From the NCBI RefSeq assembly GCF_013839425.1, contig NZ_JACDNP010000007.1, positions 62,001 to 126,000 of the forward strand: 64,000 nucleotides of DNA, written 5' to 3'. Within the stretch, counting starts at the first letter, position 1; every line of letters begins with the position of its first letter. A program made the position numbers and the translations under genes. The DNA is from Halorhabdus salina. GTDB lineage: Archaea; Halobacteriota; Halobacteria; Halobacteriales; Haloarculaceae. Below, in pieces: positions 1,063-57,005 of this stretch. The notes under the pieces are model-generated. The model saw nothing but the letters and a program-made list of their open reading frames with translations, had not been told where the DNA came from and ran no database searches.

Positions 1063-1359
1063 TCACGCCGATTCACGTTCGAGCGGCCAGTAGCCCGCCT
1101 CGCGCATCGCATCGCCGACAGCGGTGTGAAATTCGGGGAACGTCTCGAAGCTGTCCGCCTCAACGTGTTCGAAGATGTCCGACACGCTGACGACGGTCTC
1201 CTCGTCGATACGAATCGGGTGGTCTCCGTACTCGTCACGGAACGCTGTCGCTGCGACCGGAAAATCGTCGGCGTCGAGTTTCTTCGCCAGGATCGCCTGT
1301 CCGTACTTGCGGCGACCCTCGCTCCCTTCCTCGCCGTCTGGGTCGTGGGGCCAGTCCAT
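1063..1359 (-). CDS. Conserved haloarchaeal protein (DUF5785-like)
   Basis: This 98-residue soluble protein begins MDWPHDPDGEEGSEG, an N-terminus I recognise as common to a small protein conserved across haloarchaea and labelled DUF5785. It is acidic and has no membrane segment or cysteine. The body includes EYGDHPIRIDEETVVSVSDI and ends in GYWPLERESA. The family's role is unknown. The frame stays open 60 codons upstream of the ATG at 1359, but that extension is basic and unlike haloarchaeal coding sequence, so I start at MDWPHDP. Family assignment is from memory of the N-terminal motif. Confidence 0.8.
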   Translation of the reverse strand: MDWPHDPDGEEGSEGRRKYGQAILAKKLDADDFPVAATAFRDEYGDHPIRIDEETVVSVSDIFEHVEADSFETFPEFHTAVGDAMREAGYWPLERESA

Positions 1360-1525
1360 ACCGTACCTGTGGCGCTCGCCGGCAAAAAGGTATCCCAGCC
1401 AGCAGCCCCGACTGGTTGCGGTCAATTTGCAGATCACACCAAGTATTAAATGTGAGTTGTGCCACCGTTTATACAGTTGCTCGAGCCGTTTTCCCGGCAT
1501 TGCCGGGCCGGTTCGAGGTGATACA

Positions 1526-3223
1526 ATGCCTGAGGACAACGGAAACGACGGCGACAGAACCGATCGCGGGGGCGACGGGTCTGCGGGTGGCGACCCGTCG
1601 AATTCCCCGGACGAGCACGGTCAACACGGTGGACAGCCCCGCGAACAACCCGATCCGAATGGGCACGGGCAGGGTCGGCCTGGAGAGCAACCGGGCCAGG
1701 GTCAGCCCCAGGGCCAACCGCCGCGTGACCAGCCCCAAGGCCAGCCTCGCCAGGGCCAACCGCCCCAGGAGTCTCACGGGCAGAGACAGCCACACCAGGG
1801 TCGGCCCCAGGGCCAGGGAGGCCAGCCACAGGGTGGTCGCAACCCACAGAACCAGCCGTCTCAGAGCCAGCCTGGACAAGGGCGGGATCCACGGAACCAG
1901 CCACAGGGCGGGAACCCACAGCAGGGTGGACAACCACGCCAGGGCGGCCAGCCGCAAGGCGGACGACAACCCCAGAGTGGACAACCACAACAAGGTGGCC
2001 AGCCACAGGGCGGGCGACAACCACAGCAGGGAGGCCAGCCACAGCAGGGAGGCCAACCGCGCCAGAATCAGCCCCAGGGCCAACGGCGAGGCCAGCCCCA
2101 GCAGGGGCAACGAGGGCCACCGCCTGGGCGGGGTGGCCAACCCGGGGGACCACCCCAGGGTGGCGGCGGGTCCTGGCTGCCGAGTGGCTTTCAATGGACT
2201 CCGCTGACGATTCTCGCCATCCTCGTCATCGTCGGTGGCGCGGCTGCGGCCGGCGTGTTCGTCGCGACTGGTGGCGACGTCCCGTTCCTCAGCGACGGCG
2301 CTGGGAGTGACGGGGCAGCCCTCGACACCGTTCCCGAGGACGTCGACATGGTGATGTACATGGATTCGGGCATCGTTGACGATCAGACGACGGAGACGAT
2401 GGTCGACGGGGCACTAGAGATGAGTGCCCAGAACCAGTTCTATGCTGGCCCGACCTCTTACAGTGACATGTTAGAGCAGGTCAGAAGTCAGTCACCGCTC
2501 GATATCGATGCCTTCGATTCGGCGACTGTGTTTGCCCGCTATCCCGGGACTGGCGGCAGTTCAGCGGAGTACGCCGGCGCTATCGTCAAGTCCGATTGGT
2601 CCGAGGCTGACCTCATCGAGACGATCGAAGATACCGCCGGCTCGGGCGCACTCGAAGAACGCAGCTACGCTGGCACGACCGTTTACGTCCAATCTCAGGG
2701 CTTCGGTCCCGACAGCTGGATCGCCGCGATGGGTGACGGGACGTTCGTGATCGGGTACGAACAGACGGTCAAAGACGTGATCGACGTCGAGAACGGCGAC
2801 GCCGAGGCCTTCAGCGGCGAACTCCGCCAGTCCTTCGAGAACTTGCGTGACGGGTACGTCAAGGTCTCCAGTACGATGCCGGATCAAGCGGCCCAGCAGG
2901 CCAATCAGATGCCCAACGGGGCCCAGATCGTCCAGAACGTCGAAACGATGTCGGGCGTCTACTACACGAGCGGGAGTGACGTCGGGATGGAAATGCAGGT
3001 CACGGCCACCGACCAGCGTAGCGCCGAGACTGTCAAAGAGTCCGTCGATGGCTTACTGTCCTTGGCGACAGTCGGCTCCCAGAGCAGTGCAGTGTCGGAT
3101 CTGATCGACGAACTGGAGGTCTCTCAAGATCAGCGTCGCGTGACGATGTCGTTCCAGTATCCTGCCAGCGATCTCGTCGACCTCATGCAGCGACTCTCTC
3201 AGAGTGGCAGCCTGATGGGCTGA
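1526..3223 (+). CDS. Membrane-anchored protein with long P/Q/G-rich N-terminal tail
   Basis: This 565-residue protein has three parts. Residues 1-220 are low complexity, built from short GQPQ/GGQP/RQPQ units and nearly free of acidic residues after residue 70. One transmembrane helix follows (about 226-248, TILAILVIVGG). A C-terminal domain of about 315 residues (from DTVPEDVDMVMYMDS) is predicted outside the cell. That domain resembles DUF3352-like proteins of unknown role; this is a weak impression. The ATG at 1526 has a GAGGTG ribosome-binding site 6 bases upstream, which decides the start, although the frame is open further up. The Q-rich tail recurs in an unrelated membrane protein at 53161. 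Confidence 0.8.
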   Translation: MPEDNGNDGDRTDRGGDGSAGGDPSNSPDEHGQHGGQPREQPDPNGHGQGRPGEQPGQGQPQGQPPRDQPQGQPRQGQPPQESHGQRQPHQGRPQGQGGQPQGGRNPQNQPSQSQPGQGRDPRNQPQGGNPQQGGQPRQGGQPQGGRQPQSGQPQQGGQPQGGRQPQQGGQPQQGGQPRQNQPQGQRRGQPQQGQRGPPPGRGGQPGGPPQGGGGSWLPSGFQWTPLTILAILVIVGGAAAAGVFVATGGDVPFLSDGAGSDGAALDTVPEDVDMVMYMDSGIVDDQTTETMVDGALEMSAQNQFYAGPTSYSDMLEQVRSQSPLDIDAFDSATVFARYPGTGGSSAEYAGAIVKSDWSEADLIETIEDTAGSGALEERSYAGTTVYVQSQGFGPDSWIAAMGDGTFVIGYEQTVKDVIDVENGDAEAFSGELRQSFENLRDGYVKVSSTMPDQAAQQANQMPNGAQIVQNVETMSGVYYTSGSDVGMEMQVTATDQRSAETVKESVDGLLSLATVGSQSSAVSDLIDELEVSQDQRRVTMSFQYPASDLVDLMQRLSQSGSLMG

Positions 3224-5997: not shown

Positions 5998-7425
5998 TCA
6001 ATCGTCAGCAACGCCTGGTCCACCGACTTCCGACGGGACGATTTCCCGGTCGGTCGTCTCTCCGTCGATGTCGTAGGGATACGCACCGGTGACACAGCCC
6101 AGACAGAGATCGCGTCGGTCAGTGCCTAATGTCTCGGCGATGGCGTCGATCGAGAGGTACGAGAGACTGTCCGCGCCAATCTCCTCGCGGATGTCCTCGA
6201 CGTCGCGATCAGCAGCGATCAACTCATCGCGTGAAGCCATGTCGATACCCATGTAACAGGGCGCGACGATCGGTGGCGCTCCGATCCGCATGTGGATCTC
6301 CTCGGCTCCGGCGTCCCGGAGGAGTTCGATCAACTGGTTCGAGGTCGTCCCGCGGACGATCGAGTCGTCGATGAGTGTGACGCTTTTGCCCTCGATCGTG
6401 TTCTTGATCGGGTTGAGTTTCAGCCGGACAGCCTGTTCCCGCTTGTCTTGAGTGGGCATGATGAAGGTCCGCCCGACGTACCGGTTTTTCATCAGCCCCT
6501 CAGCGAACTCGACATCTTCGGCGGCCGCGGCGTACCCGGAAGCGAACGCTCGTCCCGAGTCCGGCACCGGCAGCACGACGTCGCTGTCGATGCCAGACTC
6601 CTCGTAGAGTCGCCGGCCGAGTTCCCGCCGGACGTCGTAGACGAGTTTGTCGTCGATGATCGAGTCTGGCCGGGCGAAGTAGACGTACTCGAAAAAGCAG
6701 TTCGCCGTCCGGTCGGTCTCGACGAGCTGGTAGGTGTCGTAGCCCTCGCCGTCCGGGTGCAAGACCACGAGTTCGCCCGGGCGGACGTCCCGAATTACTT
6801 CGCCGCCCAGTGTGTCGATGGCAACCGATTCCGAGGCGAGGATGTACCCACTGTCGAGTTCCCCGATACACAGCGGCCGGTTCCCTTGTGGGTCTCGCAG
6901 GCCCAGGACGGTATCGTCGTGGGTGATTGTCAGTGAATACGAGCCGTGAATCCGTTCGACCGTGCGCTTGACTGCCCGGACGAGATCTGATTCGAGCAGA
7001 TTCCGCGCCAGGTCGTGGGCAATAACCTCGGTATCACCGTCCGAGGTGAACGCGTGGCCGAGCTCGGCGAGTTCGTCCCGGACGGCCTCGGTGTTGACGA
7101 GGTTGCCGTTGTGACTCAGCCCCAGCGATCCACTCTTGAAGGAGACGGTAAACGGCTGGGCGCAGTCTTTATCGACGCTCCCGGCTGTCGGATACCGGAC
7201 GTGGCCGATCCCCACCGACCCAGCGAGTCCCGCCAGGTCCGCTTCGTCGAAGGCGTCGCCGACAAGCCCCATTTCCACGTGGCTGTGTTGCTGAAAGCCG
7301 TCGTGGGTGACGATTCCCGCGGATTCTTGGCCGCGGTGCTGAAGGGCGTACAGCGAATAGTAAAGGGGACGAGCGGCCTCACGGTCGGCGAGTGAAACGC
7401 CGACGACGCCGCACTTCTCGTCCAT
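5998..7425 (-). CDS. purF: Amidophosphoribosyltransferase
   Basis: PurF catalyses the first committed step of purine synthesis: PRPP plus glutamine gives phosphoribosylamine. The protein has 475 residues. The glutaminase nucleophile is Cys5 in MDEKCGVVGVSL; the short leader is normally removed to expose it. The N-terminal Ntn domain includes LQHRGQESAGIV and the C-terminal domain carries the PRPP loop TLIDDSIVRGTTSNQ. Cysteines late in the protein (DLCLGC) suggest the iron-sulfur-type PurF of the Bacillus class. The frame is open 25 codons upstream, but starting at 7425 gives the conserved N-terminus. It is 4 bases after rpl37e on the same strand. Confidence 0.96.
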   Translation of the reverse strand: MDEKCGVVGVSLADREAARPLYYSLYALQHRGQESAGIVTHDGFQQHSHVEMGLVGDAFDEADLAGLAGSVGIGHVRYPTAGSVDKDCAQPFTVSFKSGSLGLSHNGNLVNTEAVRDELAELGHAFTSDGDTEVIAHDLARNLLESDLVRAVKRTVERIHGSYSLTITHDDTVLGLRDPQGNRPLCIGELDSGYILASESVAIDTLGGEVIRDVRPGELVVLHPDGEGYDTYQLVETDRTANCFFEYVYFARPDSIIDDKLVYDVRRELGRRLYEESGIDSDVVLPVPDSGRAFASGYAAAAEDVEFAEGLMKNRYVGRTFIMPTQDKREQAVRLKLNPIKNTIEGKSVTLIDDSIVRGTTSNQLIELLRDAGAEEIHMRIGAPPIVAPCYMGIDMASRDELIAADRDVEDIREEIGADSLSYLSIDAIAETLGTDRRDLCLGCVTGAYPYDIDGETTDREIVPSEVGGPGVADD

Positions 7426-7429
7426 ACGC

Positions 7430-7603
7430 CTACTCGCCGGCCTTCTGTTGCCAGGCGTAGTCGCGTCGCTTGGCCGACTTGCCAAAGCCACACGAGGCAC
7501 AGACGCCTTTCCTGACGTGGTAGGACTTCTCGCCGCACCGTCGACAATTCACGTGAGTCGTCTTGTTCTTCTTCCCTTGGCTGGGGGTTCCTTTCCCGGT
7601 CAT
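7430..7603 (-). CDS. rpl37e: 50S ribosomal protein L37e
   Basis: This 57-residue basic zinc-binding protein of the large ribosomal subunit begins [20 protein letters not shown]. Four cysteines form two CxxC knuckles (NCRRCG and CASCG), followed by the conserved [12 protein letters not shown] tail that packs into rRNA. Its ATG overlaps the stop of the upstream LSm gene as ATGA, and purF follows 4 bases later. LSm and L37e are a well-known archaeal gene pair. All hallmark residues are present. Confidence 0.97.
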
Positions 7604-7785
7604 GGTTGTATCGTGACGACGTTGTCGCCGCGTATAATCGTTGTGTCTTCGCCCGCTTGCAAGACGAGATTCATGTGCTGGTCGTAGCCCGCGAGGTCAC
7701 CGACACGTTCGGTGCCGTCCTTGAGCGCGACGGTCACTTCGCTATCGAGTGCTGCCTCGAGGATGTCCAGCGGTCGATCACTCAT
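7600..7785 (-). CDS. LSm (Sm-like) RNA-binding protein
   Basis: This 61-residue archaeal Sm-like protein begins [21 protein letters not shown]. Members assemble into heptameric rings that bind U-rich RNA. The Sm1 motif includes [22 protein letters not shown], with the asparagine of the RNA-binding loop at HMN. Sm2 is [10 protein letters not shown], with the conserved RG dipeptide. Length is typical for haloarchaeal LSm, which is shorter than others. It is translationally coupled to rpl37e by an ATGA overlap, which fits a link to ribosome or RNA metabolism. Confidence 0.95.
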
Positions 7786-7869
7786 ACCGCAGGCAGGGAG
7801 CGACGGCGGGATAAACCTGACGGACCGTTGATCTTTCGACCGTCCGCCACCGACACTGTCCCGCCGACG

Positions 7870-8940
7870 CTACGTTTCGGCGTCGAGATCGACGGCGAAG
7901 GGCATGTATTCGTCCGCTTTGATCGCGAATGCACCGAGGGCCGCGGCCGCCGCGTCCAGATCGTCGGTGTCGATCACTTCGACCGGCGTGTGCATGTAGC
8001 GATTGGGGAGTCCGACGTTCAGCGACGGGATACCGCCACGCTGGGTGTAAAAGGCGTCGGCGTCGGTTCCCGTCCGGATGCCCGTCGCTTCCAGCTGGAC
8101 GTCGACATCCTCGGCGTCGGCGACATCCCGGACTGCCGCGACCAGTTGCGGGTGGTTGGCGCTCCCGCGAGCGACGACTGGCCCAGCACCTAATTCGACA
8201 CCAGTCGATCGCTTGCCGGGCACGTCCGGCGTGTCGGTGGCGTGCGTGACGTCCACCGCGATGATCGCGTCGGGATCCAGATCGAACCCGACCATCCGCG
8301 CCCCGCGGAGGCCGAGTTCTTCCTGGACGGTGCTGACGGCGTAGACGGTCGCGTCCGCGTCGGCTTCGCTCGCCCGGCGCAACGCTTCGGCGGCCGTCCA
8401 TATCCCGACCCGGTTGTCCATGCCGCGGGCCGCCAACCGCGTGCCAGCCAGCGATTGCAGGCCCGAGGAAAACGTGATCGGATCGCCGATCTCGACCAGT
8501 TCTTGCGCGCCTTCCTCGCTCTCGACGCCGATGTCAACGTACTGTTCCGGCACGTCGTCGACTTCGTCCTCACCGTCCCGCAAGTGGATCGCTACCTGTC
8601 CGACGACACCCTCGACCGGCCCGTTGTCAGCGTGGACGGTGACGTGCTGGCCGCGTGTGACTGTCCGGTCGGAGCCCCCAATCCGCGCGAGCCGAAGGAG
8701 ACCGTCGTCGGTGATCTCCCGGACCATAAATCCGATCTCGTCGCCGTGCCCGGCGATCGCGATCTCGGCGTCACCATCACCCTCGTGGACGGCGACGGCG
8801 TTCCCGTACTCGTCGGTGCGGACCTCGTCGGCGAACGCGGAGACGTACTCTACCCAGACCCGCTGGCCAGGCTGTTCGAATCCCGACGGACTCGACGTTT
8901 CGAGCAACGATTCGAGGAACTCTCGCTGTGGCTTGTCCAT
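7870..8940 (-). CDS. M42 family metallopeptidase
   Basis: This 356-residue M42 (TET-type) aminopeptidase probably acts on peptides in the cytosol as a dodecameric complex. Metal ligands fit the family: His and Asp in AGHGDEIGFMV, Asp in RGMDNRVGIW, the catalytic Glu pair in VQEELGLRGA, Asp in VDVTHATDTPD, and a C-terminal His in RYMHTPVEVI. The internal SH3-like insertion (residues about 90-150) is present. The frame is open 14 codons upstream of the ATG at 8940; I start at MDKPQREFLESLL, which matches the family. Older annotations call such proteins endoglucanase, which is a known misnomer. Confidence 0.92.
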   Translation of the reverse strand: MDKPQREFLESLLETSSPSGFEQPGQRVWVEYVSAFADEVRTDEYGNAVAVHEGDGDAEIAIAGHGDEIGFMVREITDDGLLRLARIGGSDRTVTRGQHVTVHADNGPVEGVVGQVAIHLRDGEDEVDDVPEQYVDIGVESEEGAQELVEIGDPITFSSGLQSLAGTRLAARGMDNRVGIWTAAEALRRASEADADATVYAVSTVQEELGLRGARMVGFDLDPDAIIAVDVTHATDTPDVPGKRSTGVELGAGPVVARGSANHPQLVAAVRDVADAEDVDVQLEATGIRTGTDADAFYTQRGGIPSLNVGLPNRYMHTPVEVIDTDDLDAAAAALGAFAIKADEYMPFAVDLDAET

Positions 8941-9079
8941 ACAGCTCCTGGGCACGGCACCGGCTTGAAGACCACGACTCACTTGTCAGGTGCACTTTCA
9001 GAGCCGCTTTCGAGCATCGCATGAACGACACGCTACTACAGGCGGAACTTCTATACGGTCGCTGCTCATCCTTTCAATC

Positions 9080-9343
9080 ATGGCACAGTTCACATTCATC
9101 GAACTCCACTTCGAGGAGGGGGCGATCCCCGGTATGGACGGTCTCGGCGGCACGAGAAGCGACGACACGACTGACCAATCGGTCGGTGACGAAGATGATG
9201 GCGGCCCCAGCATCTTGAAAATCGCAGGTGGGATACTTCTCGCCGTCGCGGCGATTGCAATCGTCCGGCAATTGCTTGGTGACGACGCCAGCCCGCTGGA
9301 GACCGACGACGTCCTCGACGAAGCAGACGAACTCGTCGAGTGA
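9080..9343 (+). CDS. Small single-helix membrane protein, haloarchaeal
   Basis: This 87-residue protein starts MAQFTFIELHFEEG. It has an acidic linker, one hydrophobic helix (ILKIAGGILLAVAAIAIV, about residues 44-61) and an acidic C-terminal tail. I do not recognise a named family, though small acidic one-helix proteins like this are frequent in haloarchaea. The ATG at 9080 is preferred over an open upstream extension that is basic. It lies head to head with the M42 peptidase and 47 bases before the zincin gene. Function unknown. Confidence 0.7.
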   Translation: MAQFTFIELHFEEGAIPGMDGLGGTRSDDTTDQSVGDEDDGGPSILKIAGGILLAVAAIAIVRQLLGDDASPLETDDVLDEADELVE

Positions 9344-47974: not shown

Positions 47975-48745
47975 TCAGTCGGCTGCGTGTGCGGATCCGC
48001 TGGACGCCGGCGCGGCGTCGTCCAGCACGTTGTGACTACGCAGCAGGATGATCCCGAAGATCACCTTCGCGGTCACGTCCAGCACGGCGAAGCCGGCCGT
48101 CTCGGGGCCGATCCCGATGACGCCGACACCTTCGGTTCCGATGATCCACCAGATCGGGTAAACCAGCCAGAGGATTCCGATCATGTTCCGGAGCAGTTTG
48201 AACGTACTCCGCGTGTCCGGCGACAACTCGTTGGCTTTGGCCGTCAGGGTCGAGAACAGGAAGTACAGCAACACCAGCAGGAAACCAGTGGAGACGCCCC
48301 ACCAGACGATGCGGAGCGCCTCGGCCTCAAGTCCGGCCGCGCCGGTGAACTGCAGTGTTGCGACGACACCCGTGAGGATCATCAACACGTCCAGGCCGAC
48401 GAGCGTCGAGGTGGTGTTCCGATCAGCACCCGCGAGCAACGCGATGTCGTACAACAACAGCGGCGTCGTCAGGATCCAGTCGGTGTACCGGGCCCAGTAG
48501 ATGGTTTCAGGCTCCTCGAAACTGGTCCCGATGATGTCGTTGACGATTTCGATCGGCAACCGGCCGAACCCTGTCGCCATCGCCAGGTAGTTCACGAACG
48601 CGATCGCCGCGATGAACGTTGTGACGATGTAAAACTTCTTTCGCCGGGAATCCTGTACGTTCCAGCCTGTCGCGATGAAGTACAGCATCCCCAGGAACAT
48701 TCCTGCCGTGCCTGCCCACAGTGATATGTTTGTCAGGTCTGCCAT
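47975..48745 (-). CDS. bop: Bacteriorhodopsin-type light-driven proton pump
   Basis: This 256-residue seven-helix opsin binds retinal at Lys227 ([11 protein letters not shown]). The proton path is intact: Arg86 and Asp89 (acceptor) in [16 protein letters not shown], Asp100 (donor, equivalent to D96), Glu205 and Glu215 (release group, in GTEG and GPET), and Asp223. All spacings equal those of Halobacterium bacteriorhodopsin, so outward proton pumping is expected. The Trp pair in IVWWGVST argues against a xanthorhodopsin-like carotenoid antenna. ATG at 48745 fits the activator-box geometry; ATG at 48760 would add MGSCS. The long cleavable leader of bacteriorhodopsin is absent. Confidence 0.95.
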
Positions 48746-48786
48746 GCTACAACTACCCATTGTTGCCGGTTCTGGGTAACTATCGT

Positions 48787-48802
48787 ACCAAATCAATTCG
48801 GT
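48787..48802 (-). promoter_or_regulatory. Bat-box-like activator site of the rhodopsin gene
   Basis: On the minus strand ACCGAATTGATTTGGT is centred 49-50 bases before the ATG at 48745 and is followed by GATAGTTA (48778-48785), a TATA-like element. This agrees with the Halobacterium bop promoter, where the activator box sits directly upstream of TATA. Expected transcription start is near 48756, leaving a very short leader. Confidence 0.65.
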
Positions 48803-48876
48803 ATCTGACCGGTCACTCACGCGAGACAGGCCTGTACCGACAGGGTTTCACGGATCCGGGCCGTGGCATACTCCGA

Positions 48877-53106: not shown

Positions 53107-53160
53107 CGCCGGACCCAGGCTGGGGATTTATGACACGCCCGACTCTCAACCGAGCCAACG

Positions 53161-54537
53161 ATGCCATATTGCCCAAACTGTGGGTCGGAAGTCGATCCGA
53201 CAGTCACACAGTGCCCTTCCTGCCAGGCGTCGCTTCGAGGAACTGGCCTGGAGGGCCAACAGGCCGCCGGTGGCCGAGCAGACAGCGGCCCCCCGAGTGC
53301 AGATTCAGTCCCACCACAGGAAAACCAGCAGCCGGCGTCCCAACGCGACCGCCAGGACCGATCGAACCGACAACGCCGTGATGACGGCAGCGGGCAAGGC
53401 ACTCGACAGCAACCCAGTCGACGACAGACCGGTGGGCAACAACCTAAGCAGCAACAGGCCAATCAGCGACAACAAACTGGTCACCAGCAGGCCGGCCGGC
53501 AACGGACCAATCAACGACAGCAAACTGGTCAGCAGCAGGCTGGGTCCCAATCCCATCGGCAAGCCTCGCCCCAGGGTGGCGATGGTGGGCGACCGCCAGG
53601 TGGCCAGGGGGGCACGAGTCCAGGTGGCGGGACCAGTCGCCGTCGATTGCTCGGACTCGGTGCCGGATTGCTGGCCCTCGCTGGTGGTGGCGTGTTTGCC
53701 TACGATCAGTTCCTCTCGGGTGGCCAGGGACCGACAGCCGCAGCCAAATCGTTCATCCAGGCCCTCGACGACGGCGACGCGGTCGAGGTACGATCGCTTG
53801 CTGCCACTGACTCGCCGATTCAGGACGTCTCTGAGAGCGATCTAGCGCCGTTCGACACTGCCGAGTTAGAAGTACAGCGCACCGCAGTCCAAGCCCAAAC
53901 TGAGACAAGCGCTCGGATCGAGGCCGATGTCTCAACCGCGGGCGACGCCGCATCCTCGACCCTTTCGATCCACCTGCAGAAATCGGATGGTGAGTGGCTC
54001 GTCGAGCGAATCATGAATCTCAACGCGGGCGGCTTCCTCCAGAGCAGTGCAGAAGAGAGCGGAGAGCAGGCGGCCGAGCAGGTCACGAATCGGCTCGTCG
54101 AGGTGAATACAGTCGGCACAGTCGGCATGGACGCCTCCGGAGCACCAGCCGTGACGACAGTCGAGATGACTGTTCGACTCGCCCCCGGATCGGGTGACGT
54201 CACTCTCGACGAAATAGTGGTACAACTGGTTCAGTCAAACGGCTCGTTCACCCTTGCAGCTGCCGATGCCAGTGGAGTCGACGAGGTTGATGGGGGGTTC
54301 GTCGTGACGCCGTTACGCGATAACGACAGCTCGATCGAGAGCAACGCTGCTTTGAACGATCCGGTCGATCGGGCGACGCTCGAAATCGGACTCGACGGCG
54401 AGGGATTCAATATCGAGAGCTATCTATCCGCTGGCAGTACGGCAGAAGTACAGCTCCAAACTTCGAGTGGTGGACACACGACGATCACGCTGGTCGTCCC
54501 TGAGGCCTTGGACGGAAAAGACACTGTCTCACTCTGA
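53161..54537 (+). CDS. Composite membrane protein: zinc ribbon, Q-rich linker, one helix, NTF2-like domain, archaellin-like body
   Basis: The layout of this 458-residue protein has five parts. First is an N-terminal zinc ribbon (CPNC and CPSC, residues 4-21). Second is a Q/R-rich linker (about 55-150), then one membrane helix (about 161-182, LLGLGAGLLALAGGG). A DUF4878/NTF2-like segment follows (188-284). The C-terminal part (about 288-458) closely follows archaellins from just after their signal helix: NAGGFLQSSAEESGEQAAEQ, TNRLVEV, TVRLAPGSGDVTLDEIVVQL, LTTSSG-like strand QLQTSSGGHTTITL and the ending VPEALDGKDTVSL. The archaellin helix itself is absent, so it cannot assemble as a normal filament subunit. 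Role unknown. Confidence 0.8.
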   Translation: MPYCPNCGSEVDPTVTQCPSCQASLRGTGLEGQQAAGGRADSGPPSADSVPPQENQQPASQRDRQDRSNRQRRDDGSGQGTRQQPSRRQTGGQQPKQQQANQRQQTGHQQAGRQRTNQRQQTGQQQAGSQSHRQASPQGGDGGRPPGGQGGTSPGGGTSRRRLLGLGAGLLALAGGGVFAYDQFLSGGQGPTAAAKSFIQALDDGDAVEVRSLAATDSPIQDVSESDLAPFDTAELEVQRTAVQAQTETSARIEADVSTAGDAASSTLSIHLQKSDGEWLVERIMNLNAGGFLQSSAEESGEQAAEQVTNRLVEVNTVGTVGMDASGAPAVTTVEMTVRLAPGSGDVTLDEIVVQLVQSNGSFTLAAADASGVDEVDGGFVVTPLRDNDSSIESNAALNDPVDRATLEIGLDGEGFNIESYLSAGSTAEVQLQTSSGGHTTITLVVPEALDGKDTVSL

Positions 54538-54577
54538 CTGCCGCATTGTTCGTCCCAGCCGACTCCGTCGGGACGAT

Positions 54578-55650: not shown

Positions 55651-56931
55651 TTATTCTCGGCGACCCAGGAGGGCGACGGAAAGCAATGTCACGAGCGTGA
55701 CCCCGATGCCAAAGCCAGGCCCGCTCGTTGTCGTCGCGGTCGTCGATTCGGGCGTATCTGTCTCGCTGGTAGTCATCGTGGTCTCAGTTGCCGTTGTTGT
55801 CTCGGTTTGGGTGTCGGTTTCGGTCACCGTTGCCGTCTCCTCGGCTGCGGGTTCGACGCCCTCGACGGTGGCTTCGGCTCGGAGTCCGTCGGTCGTCGCA
55901 ACGACTGCCAACTCGCCGGCGGTCTCGATCGGTACCGTTAGTGCCCCGTTGCTGTCCGTCGTGCCGACGGTGTCGCCCTCGACGCTGACGGTCGTGCCCG
56001 AGACGGTCTGGCCGTACTCGTCGGTGACGACCACTCGGACGCTCTCACCGACGACAACCCGGTCGTTTGCGGATTGCAGTTGCAAATCCGGCGTGCGCGA
56101 GATCGTCACATTGTGCTCGATCGACGACTCGTTGACCGTGACCGTCGTTGTATTGGTGGTGTATCCGTCTTTGTGAACGGTAATGGCCTGTTGAGTGTTG
56201 ACTGGGACGCGCAACGTTGCTTCGCCGTTCGAAAGGGTTGTCACCGAGCCGAGGTCCGCCACCTCGACGGTGGCCTGTTCGACCGCTTGGGGCGGATCGA
56301 AGTGATCATCCCGAACGTCAAAGGTAACAGACACAGATGCTTCTTCGAGGGTGATCGCTTGTGAAATGTCACCAGTCACCTGATAGCGCTCGGTGTAGTT
56401 CAGGTGGCCTGGCTTCGTGACTGTGATCTCGTAGGGGCCACGCTCGATTGATCCGGTCTGCAACTGTCCGTTCGCGTTTGTCTCTCCCGTGAGGACCGTC
56501 TGTCCGTTCTGTTTGAGGCGGACTGTTGCGTTCGCCACGGACCCTCCAGAACGGTCCACCTGCAGATCCATCGACCCCTTTCTGGCGACGTCAATGGAGA
56601 CGGTCTCCGCACTTGCATCAGTTATCTCAATGGGGACGTTCCGGACGTAGTCTCCGGGCTCTACGGCAATCGTCGCGTTCGATCCTCGTGGCACGTCGAC
56701 CAAGGCTTGTCCGTTCGCTCTGGTCGTGACGGTCTCGTTGCCATCTGTCCAGGAGACAGTGAGTGTTACATCGCCGACATCGCTCCCGTAGCGATCCTCG
56801 ACGGCGAGGGTGAGTGTCACGTTGTCTTGGCCCTGGGCGAGGCCAACTCCCCCAAAGGGAACGACGGTCATCGCCCCAGCGAGGACGACCACCCAGATGA
56901 CGACGGCCACACGGCTGCGGAGTACTGACAT
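55651..56931 (-). CDS. PGF-CTERM surface protein with carboxypeptidase-like repeats
   Basis: This 426-residue secreted protein has a Sec signal peptide (about 1-32, VAVVIWVVVLAGAMTVVPFG, ending near AQG). About four beta-sandwich modules of carboxypeptidase-regulatory or Ig-like type follow (for example TVRLKQNGQTVLTGETNANGQ, TVEVADLGSVTTLSNGEATL and TTVSVEGDTVGTTDSNGALT). A Thr/Glu-rich stalk follows, and the C-terminal sorting signal PGFGIGVTLVTLLSVALLGRRE. PGF-CTERM proteins are processed by archaeosortase ArtA and attached to lipid at the cell surface. Partner and ligand are unknown. The ATG at 56931 gives the cleanest signal peptide. Confidence 0.9.
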   Translation of the reverse strand: MSVLRSRVAVVIWVVVLAGAMTVVPFGGVGLAQGQDNVTLTLAVEDRYGSDVGDVTLTVSWTDGNETVTTRANGQALVDVPRGSNATIAVEPGDYVRNVPIEITDASAETVSIDVARKGSMDLQVDRSGGSVANATVRLKQNGQTVLTGETNANGQLQTGSIERGPYEITVTKPGHLNYTERYQVTGDISQAITLEEASVSVTFDVRDDHFDPPQAVEQATVEVADLGSVTTLSNGEATLRVPVNTQQAITVHKDGYTTNTTTVTVNESSIEHNVTISRTPDLQLQSANDRVVVGESVRVVVTDEYGQTVSGTTVSVEGDTVGTTDSNGALTVPIETAGELAVVATTDGLRAEATVEGVEPAAEETATVTETDTQTETTTATETTMTTSETDTPESTTATTTSGPGFGIGVTLVTLLSVALLGRRE

Positions 56932-57005
56932 ACGCGACACCACGACGAGTGGTCATAAATCTTTAACGACACCGAAAGGGTACGGAAGGGGAGCAAGCCG
57001 TTGTG

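Follow-up and report, generated by a model that had tools for sequence, protein, structure and literature searches.

The open reading frame at positions 53161-54537 (forward strand; ATG start, 458 aa, no internal stop) of the window, that is, the whole 64,000-nucleotide stretch of Halorhabdus salina DNA analyzed here, encodes a protein with an archaellin head at the C-terminus of a membrane-anchored zinc ribbon/NTF2-like protein. The order of its parts is zinc ribbon, basic Q-rich linker, twin-arginine membrane anchor, NTF2-like domain and archaellin C-terminus. Both the anchored family and the filament head were already known; what is new is their combination in this order and its independent recurrence. 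A literature search found no description of archaellin-head fusions, in agreement with an earlier note, made from the sequence of the window, that knew of no described protein with this domain order.

Domain architecture of the fusion protein

All features of the protein are encoded on the forward strand. The zinc ribbon (CPNC...CPSC, residues 3-26; 53167..53238) is predicted to be cytoplasmic. It is matched by PF13240 with an E-value of 3.8e-5 and 23.8 bits, slightly below the Pfam cut-off of 25, and the CxxC...CxxC pattern at the N-terminus is found family-wide among the paralogs. The ribbon is followed by a disordered basic linker (residues 29-160; 53245..53640) that consists of 25% Q and carries a net charge of +9. 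The twin-arginine type membrane anchor TSRRRLLGLGAGLLALAGGGVFAYDQF (53638..53718) aligns with the lipobox-bearing SRRRLLASGVGLLAIAASGC of a relative from another species of the genus (G006) and with the RRRNLLKYGGG anchors of the paralogs; TAT_signal matches are also present on relatives of the family. The NTF2-like domain (DUF4878/DUF3828/SnoaL-like; residues 187-285; 53719..54015) is identified by homology to the paralogs and is predicted to lie outside the cell; it matches NCBIfam Rv0361_Cterm with an E-value of 2.2e-5, below the cut-off. The net charge of the ectodomain that follows the membrane segment is -34, so that, with the positive linker inside and the acidic ectodomain outside, the protein likely has its N-terminus in the cytoplasm and its C-terminus on the exterior. 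The earlier note proposed display of the archaellin-like domain at the membrane, and from this charge pattern the domain is predicted to lie on the outside; the domain order given there is real as judged from the Pfam matches, the homology to paralogs and the intact frame.

The archaellin part is clearly identifiable. PF01917 (Arch_flagellin) matches residues 287-443 over profile positions 26-161 of 162 (E 1.8e-11; 45.1 bits, compared to the curated cut-off of 29.5), a phmmer search of solved structures retrieved archaellins over the same C-terminal stretch (9eq7, E 5.5e-6), and an archaellin of the same genome is 55% identical to this region (E 3e-38). The match, which was recognized in the earlier note as an archaellin-like body, is far beyond chance. 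The archaellin of Halobacterium salinarum consists of a 45-residue N-terminal helix, a 3-aa linker and a β-sandwich (PMC11239922). The window protein has no class III signal, and the hydrophobic portion of the helix, about 25 residues, is missing as well, with the profile match starting at position 26, and the sequence upstream of residue 287 is NTF2-like rather than a class III signal or assembly helix. Alignment with the archaellins of the genus indicates that the remaining, polar distal half of the tail helix, about 18 residues (GGFLQSSAEESGEQAAEQ, residues 290-307; 54028..54081), the hinge VTN (54082..54090; compare PMC11239922) and the whole head (residues 311-458; 54091..54537, including the stop codon) are retained. 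The earlier note placed the start of the similarity just after the assembly helix and considered the helix to be wholly lost, which is incorrect given that residues 290-307 are part of it; its other statements, namely that the class III signal is missing and that normal archaellin processing and assembly are ruled out, stand because both the signal and the hydrophobic segment are absent. The eight-stranded beta-sandwich of the head is predicted from sequence homology, the single-sequence AlphaFold2 models (pLDDT 36-42) being unusable.

The helix stub and hinge show 97% mean identity to 11 archaellins of the genus, compared to 95% among the archaellins themselves, and the respective values for the head are 47% and 53%. 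In terms of sequence, this portion resembles any other archaellin of the genus, and 31 of the 35 archaellin-invariant positions of the head are kept (28-31 across the fusions described below). The conservation of the stub may reflect either selection or a fairly recent capture. Among the 24-31 identical residues in this region, the codon is shared at just 10-17, so that recent gene conversion by the sampled archaellins is unsupported; this comparison excludes conversion from the sampled archaellins only, and capture from an unsampled archaellin would mimic selection on the stub.

A recent single-gene insertion

The gene resides in an inserted stretch (53107..54577) between a gene for a FAD protein and a convergent gene of the GCV_T type. 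The insert contains this one gene and is absent in another member of the genus, G002, where the junction is empty and the two flanking genes are about 45 bp apart, as well as in the other members, none of which carries a fusion at this junction. No target-site duplication and no mobile-element ends were found at the borders. The gene is a recent, clean one-gene insert. A TATA-like box, ATTTATGA (53126..53133, forward strand), identified by inspection of the sequence within the insert approximately 30 nt upstream of the ATG, is a putative promoter element from which the gene could be expressed. In the same genome (G000), the arl locus is on contig C1 and the fusion gene on contig C23, that is, outside the arl locus.

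A full-length relative is encoded in G006. It is 41% identical to the window protein over the NTF2-like domain and the head, and contains a Tat signal with a lipobox but no zinc ribbon. This relative, together with the intact reading frames and the clean insert that leaves an empty junction in related genomes, excludes an assembly error or a frameshift joining two genes, the case in which the earlier note would have withdrawn its proposal.

Two other genes of the window may be mentioned here. A PEGA/CarboxypepD_reg surface protein with a PGF-CTERM sorting signal is encoded near the fusion gene (55651-56943, reverse strand), and a microbial rhodopsin-like gene, recognized by eye only, lies beside uvrA (47975-48820, reverse strand).

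The zinc ribbon/NTF2-like parent family

As judged by homology, the front half of the protein belongs to a pre-existing family, with the head appended at its natural C-terminus. An unfused paralog in the same genome (L046, with a counterpart, L045, in G002) starts in the same manner as the window protein (MPYCQECG...), continues through a Q-rich linker, an RRRNLLKYGGG anchor and the NTF2-like domain, and ends there. When the 293 genomes of the order were searched with a profile of the front part, 50 contained matching proteins, which include many Tat lipoproteins (e.g., L066, MQRRQYLGA...LAGC). These relatives match models of the NTF2 superfamily, namely DUF4878, DUF3828, SnoaL and MecA_N, mostly below the cut-offs, the sole match above being that of L074 to DUF3828 (28.1 vs 26). 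The earlier note did not recognize that the front half belongs to a family that also exists in unfused form. Zinc ribbon-TM-NTF2-like architectures have been described and interpreted as ligand-sensing (PMC3924330). From that work only, we infer that the window protein could bind a ligand and signal, and the role of a sensor or adaptor suggested in the earlier note fits the architecture.

The same design of a linker and an RR anchor occurs with other cytoplasmic or outer domains in the proteins encoded at L090:1072-2370 and L075:964-1866 (both forward strand), with a zinc ribbon or Mrr-like N-terminus. The composition of these proteins suggests a modular family of haloarchaeal envelope proteins.

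Independent captures of archaellin heads

The genome encodes a second archaellin-head fusion of 810 aa (L039:5837-8269, contig C21, reverse strand) that belongs to a different parent family and consists of an N-terminal domain, a P/Q-rich linker, a TM segment, a DUF3352-like ectodomain and the archaellin head. Its counterpart in G002 (L044, about 6884-9300, reverse strand) contains a frameshift in the P/Q-rich linker that may reflect either genuine decay or erroneous sequencing of the repeats. Unfused members of the DUF3352-like family are common; one of them, with a PQ-rich linker, a TM segment and a DUF3352-like ectodomain but no filament head, is encoded in the window itself (1175..3223 as listed, forward strand; the true start is probably downstream). 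A profile built from the four fusion heads of the genus and run on 392 genomes ranked those four first and led to a fifth fusion in another genus (G106), a 539-aa Tat lipoprotein with a DUF3352-like ectodomain and an archaellin head that includes the helix part (L135:1782-3401, reverse strand; PF01917 E 8.6e-17). Except for this protein, archaellin matches in long frames elsewhere are ordinary archaellins with an upstream open frame or inserts, and tblastn searches of a wider set of named genomes retrieved no relative. Full-length fusions with the DUF were detected by the respective profile in only three of the 392 genomes (G000, G002 and G106), and the NTF2-like fusion was seen in G000 and G006 only; given the sampling of genomes and the loose first filter, these counts are lower bounds. 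In three of the five fusions, those of G006 and G002 and the second one of G000, the helix stub is eroded in the alignment.

A tree built from 60 heads places the head of the G106 fusion with the archaellins of the same genome (93/94), the window head and the other heads from G000 and G002 inside the archaellin clade of their own genus (100/100), and the G006 head near the archaellins of G003, G006 and G027 (98/85). According to AU tests, neither the heads of the three DUF-type fusions (p 0.008) nor the five heads taken together (p 0.0007) form a single clade, whereas one is not rejected for the pair of the window and G006 heads (p 0.068). In the tree of the parent DUF family, the G106 fusion is separate from the G000 and G002 fusions and clusters with unfused proteins from other genera (99/94). 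Both trees contain long branches, so that the exact placements are tentative. Nevertheless, the AU tests rule out a single origin for all fusions and, together with the position of the G106 fusion in the DUF tree, indicate at least three independent captures, of which the DUF family accounts for two and the NTF2-like family for one. The trees further indicate that each head was captured from the archaellins of the respective lineage.

Type IV pilin-like heads (PF07790) occur on both parent families in other genera, also at the C-terminus of Tat lipoproteins. The assignment is firm for the DUF lipoprotein of G007, the only one to pass the PF07790 cut-off (E 2.7e-6), and moderate, as judged from sequence similarity, for the other four. 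These are the DUF lipoproteins of G106 and G017, with matches below the cut-off, and the NTF2-like lipoproteins of G058 (E 0.0015) and G062 (E 0.13, with an E-value of 1.9e-17 to a profile of three pilin-like tails). Genes for Tat lipoproteins of the parent families that end in a pilin-like head are located at L127:1087-2763 and L072:1300-2265 (both forward strand) and at L125:1096-2475 and L121:1081-1923 (both reverse strand). The G062 protein (L085:838-2037, reverse strand) combines the NTF2-like domain and the pilin-like head with a C-terminal cupredoxin domain. The other independent fusions and the pilin-headed versions had escaped the earlier note.

Possible functions of the grafted heads

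A plausible scenario is that an archaellin gene donated a copy of its head, which was added to the end of a protein of the zinc ribbon/NTF2-like family. The zinc ribbon and the basic Q-rich linker would then stay in the cytoplasm, the hydrophobic segment derived from the twin-arginine signal would anchor the protein in the membrane, and the NTF2-like domain and the terminal head would face outward. Having neither a class III signal nor a hydrophobic tail, the protein cannot be processed and incorporated into the filament like an archaellin. Instead, the head could serve for docking, with a filament-type surface that touches the archaellin heads in the archaellum of the same cell, or in its pre-assembly pool or base, and so places a ligand-sensing envelope protein beside the filament. 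We favor docking, either to the filament of the same cell or to the subunits of this filament, with a probability of roughly 0.45, because of the precedent of ArlF and ArlG, archaellin duplicates that serve as a static stator, with ArlG keeping a subset of the archaellin head-head contacts (PMC8667602, PMC12024892). The co-occurrence with arl genes raised in the earlier note is observed, with archaellins encoded in all four fusion-bearing genomes, but is uninformative because they are also found in about 70% of the family genomes (81 of 116). Several observations are at odds with docking, namely the erosion of the stub in most of the fusions, the distance of the gene from the arl locus, and the presence of a pilin-like head in the cupredoxin lipoprotein of G062.

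The last of these observations, along with the fact that the head alone is common to all fusions whereas the helix is often lost, is also what would be expected if the head were a generic, stable, secreted and salt-adapted beta-sandwich that serves as a spacer or an adhesin and has no role in the archaellum. We rank this possibility below docking and consider it a serious contender nevertheless. Capture from the archaellins of the same lineage cannot separate the two because recombination within a genome is equally expected to yield it, and it is no proof that the head binds that archaellum. Two features speak against a generic domain. Although haloarchaea have a wide choice of other secreted beta-domains, it was type IV filament heads that were acquired repeatedly, in the same place, by two parent families, and the window protein has kept the polar part of the helix and the hinge. 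The conservation of the stub and hinge to the same extent as in archaellins (97% vs 95%) would also suit a regulator of assembly or of the subunit pool, in which the head and stub bind membrane-held archaellin precursors or the base of the filament and limit or prime growth. This is improbable considering the degraded stubs in the fusions of G006 and G002 and in the second fusion of G000, and a fairly recent capture could account for the conserved stub as well. Surface display of an archaellin head and the patchy, single-gene nature of the insert would permit a decoy for archaellum-binding viruses, as proposed in the earlier note, or another recognition decoy, or else a viral origin of the gene. 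The parent families, however, are ordinary envelope proteins, and no viral or defense genes were recognized beside the gene. Moreover, tblastn searches of phage records with the whole sequence detected no relative, and neither did searches of viral contigs with patterns from the NTF2-like part, and we regard such an origin or role as very improbable. A recent non-functional fusion, an incipient pseudogene or an assembly artifact seems just as improbable: the window gene is indeed a recent insert and the linker of the DUF-type fusion in G002 contains a frameshift, but the frames in G000, G006 and G106 are intact, the fusions recur independently, and 28-31 of the 35 archaellin-invariant head positions have been kept.

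To return to docking, the common denominator of all these proteins appears to be an outward-facing, Tat- or lipid-anchored protein with a distal filament-subunit head and none of the assembly machinery. The recurrent, independent grafts suggest that envelope proteins are connected to surface filaments through these heads. A more general and rather doubtful extension is that these proteins represent an undescribed class of Tat-anchored envelope proteins in which an archaellin or pilin head is a plug-in that physically tethers sensors or redox proteins of the cell surface to the archaella or pili of the same cell. If the heads do bind filaments, the fusions would reveal which envelope proteins are partners of archaella and pili, and would allow a direct test of archaellin-head recognition outside the filament. 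Even without such binding, filament heads are shuffled as ordinary extracellular domains, so that a match to PF01917 or PF07790 alone is no proof of an archaellin or pilin gene.

Comparison with known systems

The fusion is homologous to the archaellins ArlA and ArlB (PF01917; Halobacterium salinarum, 9eq7) in the head, the hinge and the distal part of the tail helix. It differs from them in having neither a class III signal nor a hydrophobic tail helix, with the head placed on the C-terminus of another anchored protein and the gene located outside the arl locus. Similarly to the zinc ribbon-TM-NTF2-like proteins (PMC3924330), it is predicted to comprise an intracellular zinc ribbon, a membrane segment and an extracellular NTF2-like domain; the unfused members stop after this domain whereas the window protein continues into the archaellin head. 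The pilin-headed Tat lipoproteins (PF07790) share the parent families and the C-terminal site of the filament-subunit head, which in their case is pilin-like and in the window protein is an archaellin head. ArlF and ArlG are archaellin-derived, membrane-anchored proteins that statically display an archaellin-type head on the outside, an arrangement that is also predicted for the head of the fusion from its sequence and charge. They are encoded in the arl cluster and possess their own N-terminal helix, neither of which applies to the fusion, and separate PF01917-positive candidates for ArlF and ArlG are present in the same genome beside an ArlH-like gene; the fusion, in turn, has the zinc ribbon, the linker, the NTF2-like domain and a patchy distribution. 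ArlF and ArlG exemplify the re-use of archaellins as static motor parts; the fusions would represent a second, recurrent route in which the head only is moved, to anchored proteins that are unrelated to archaellins.
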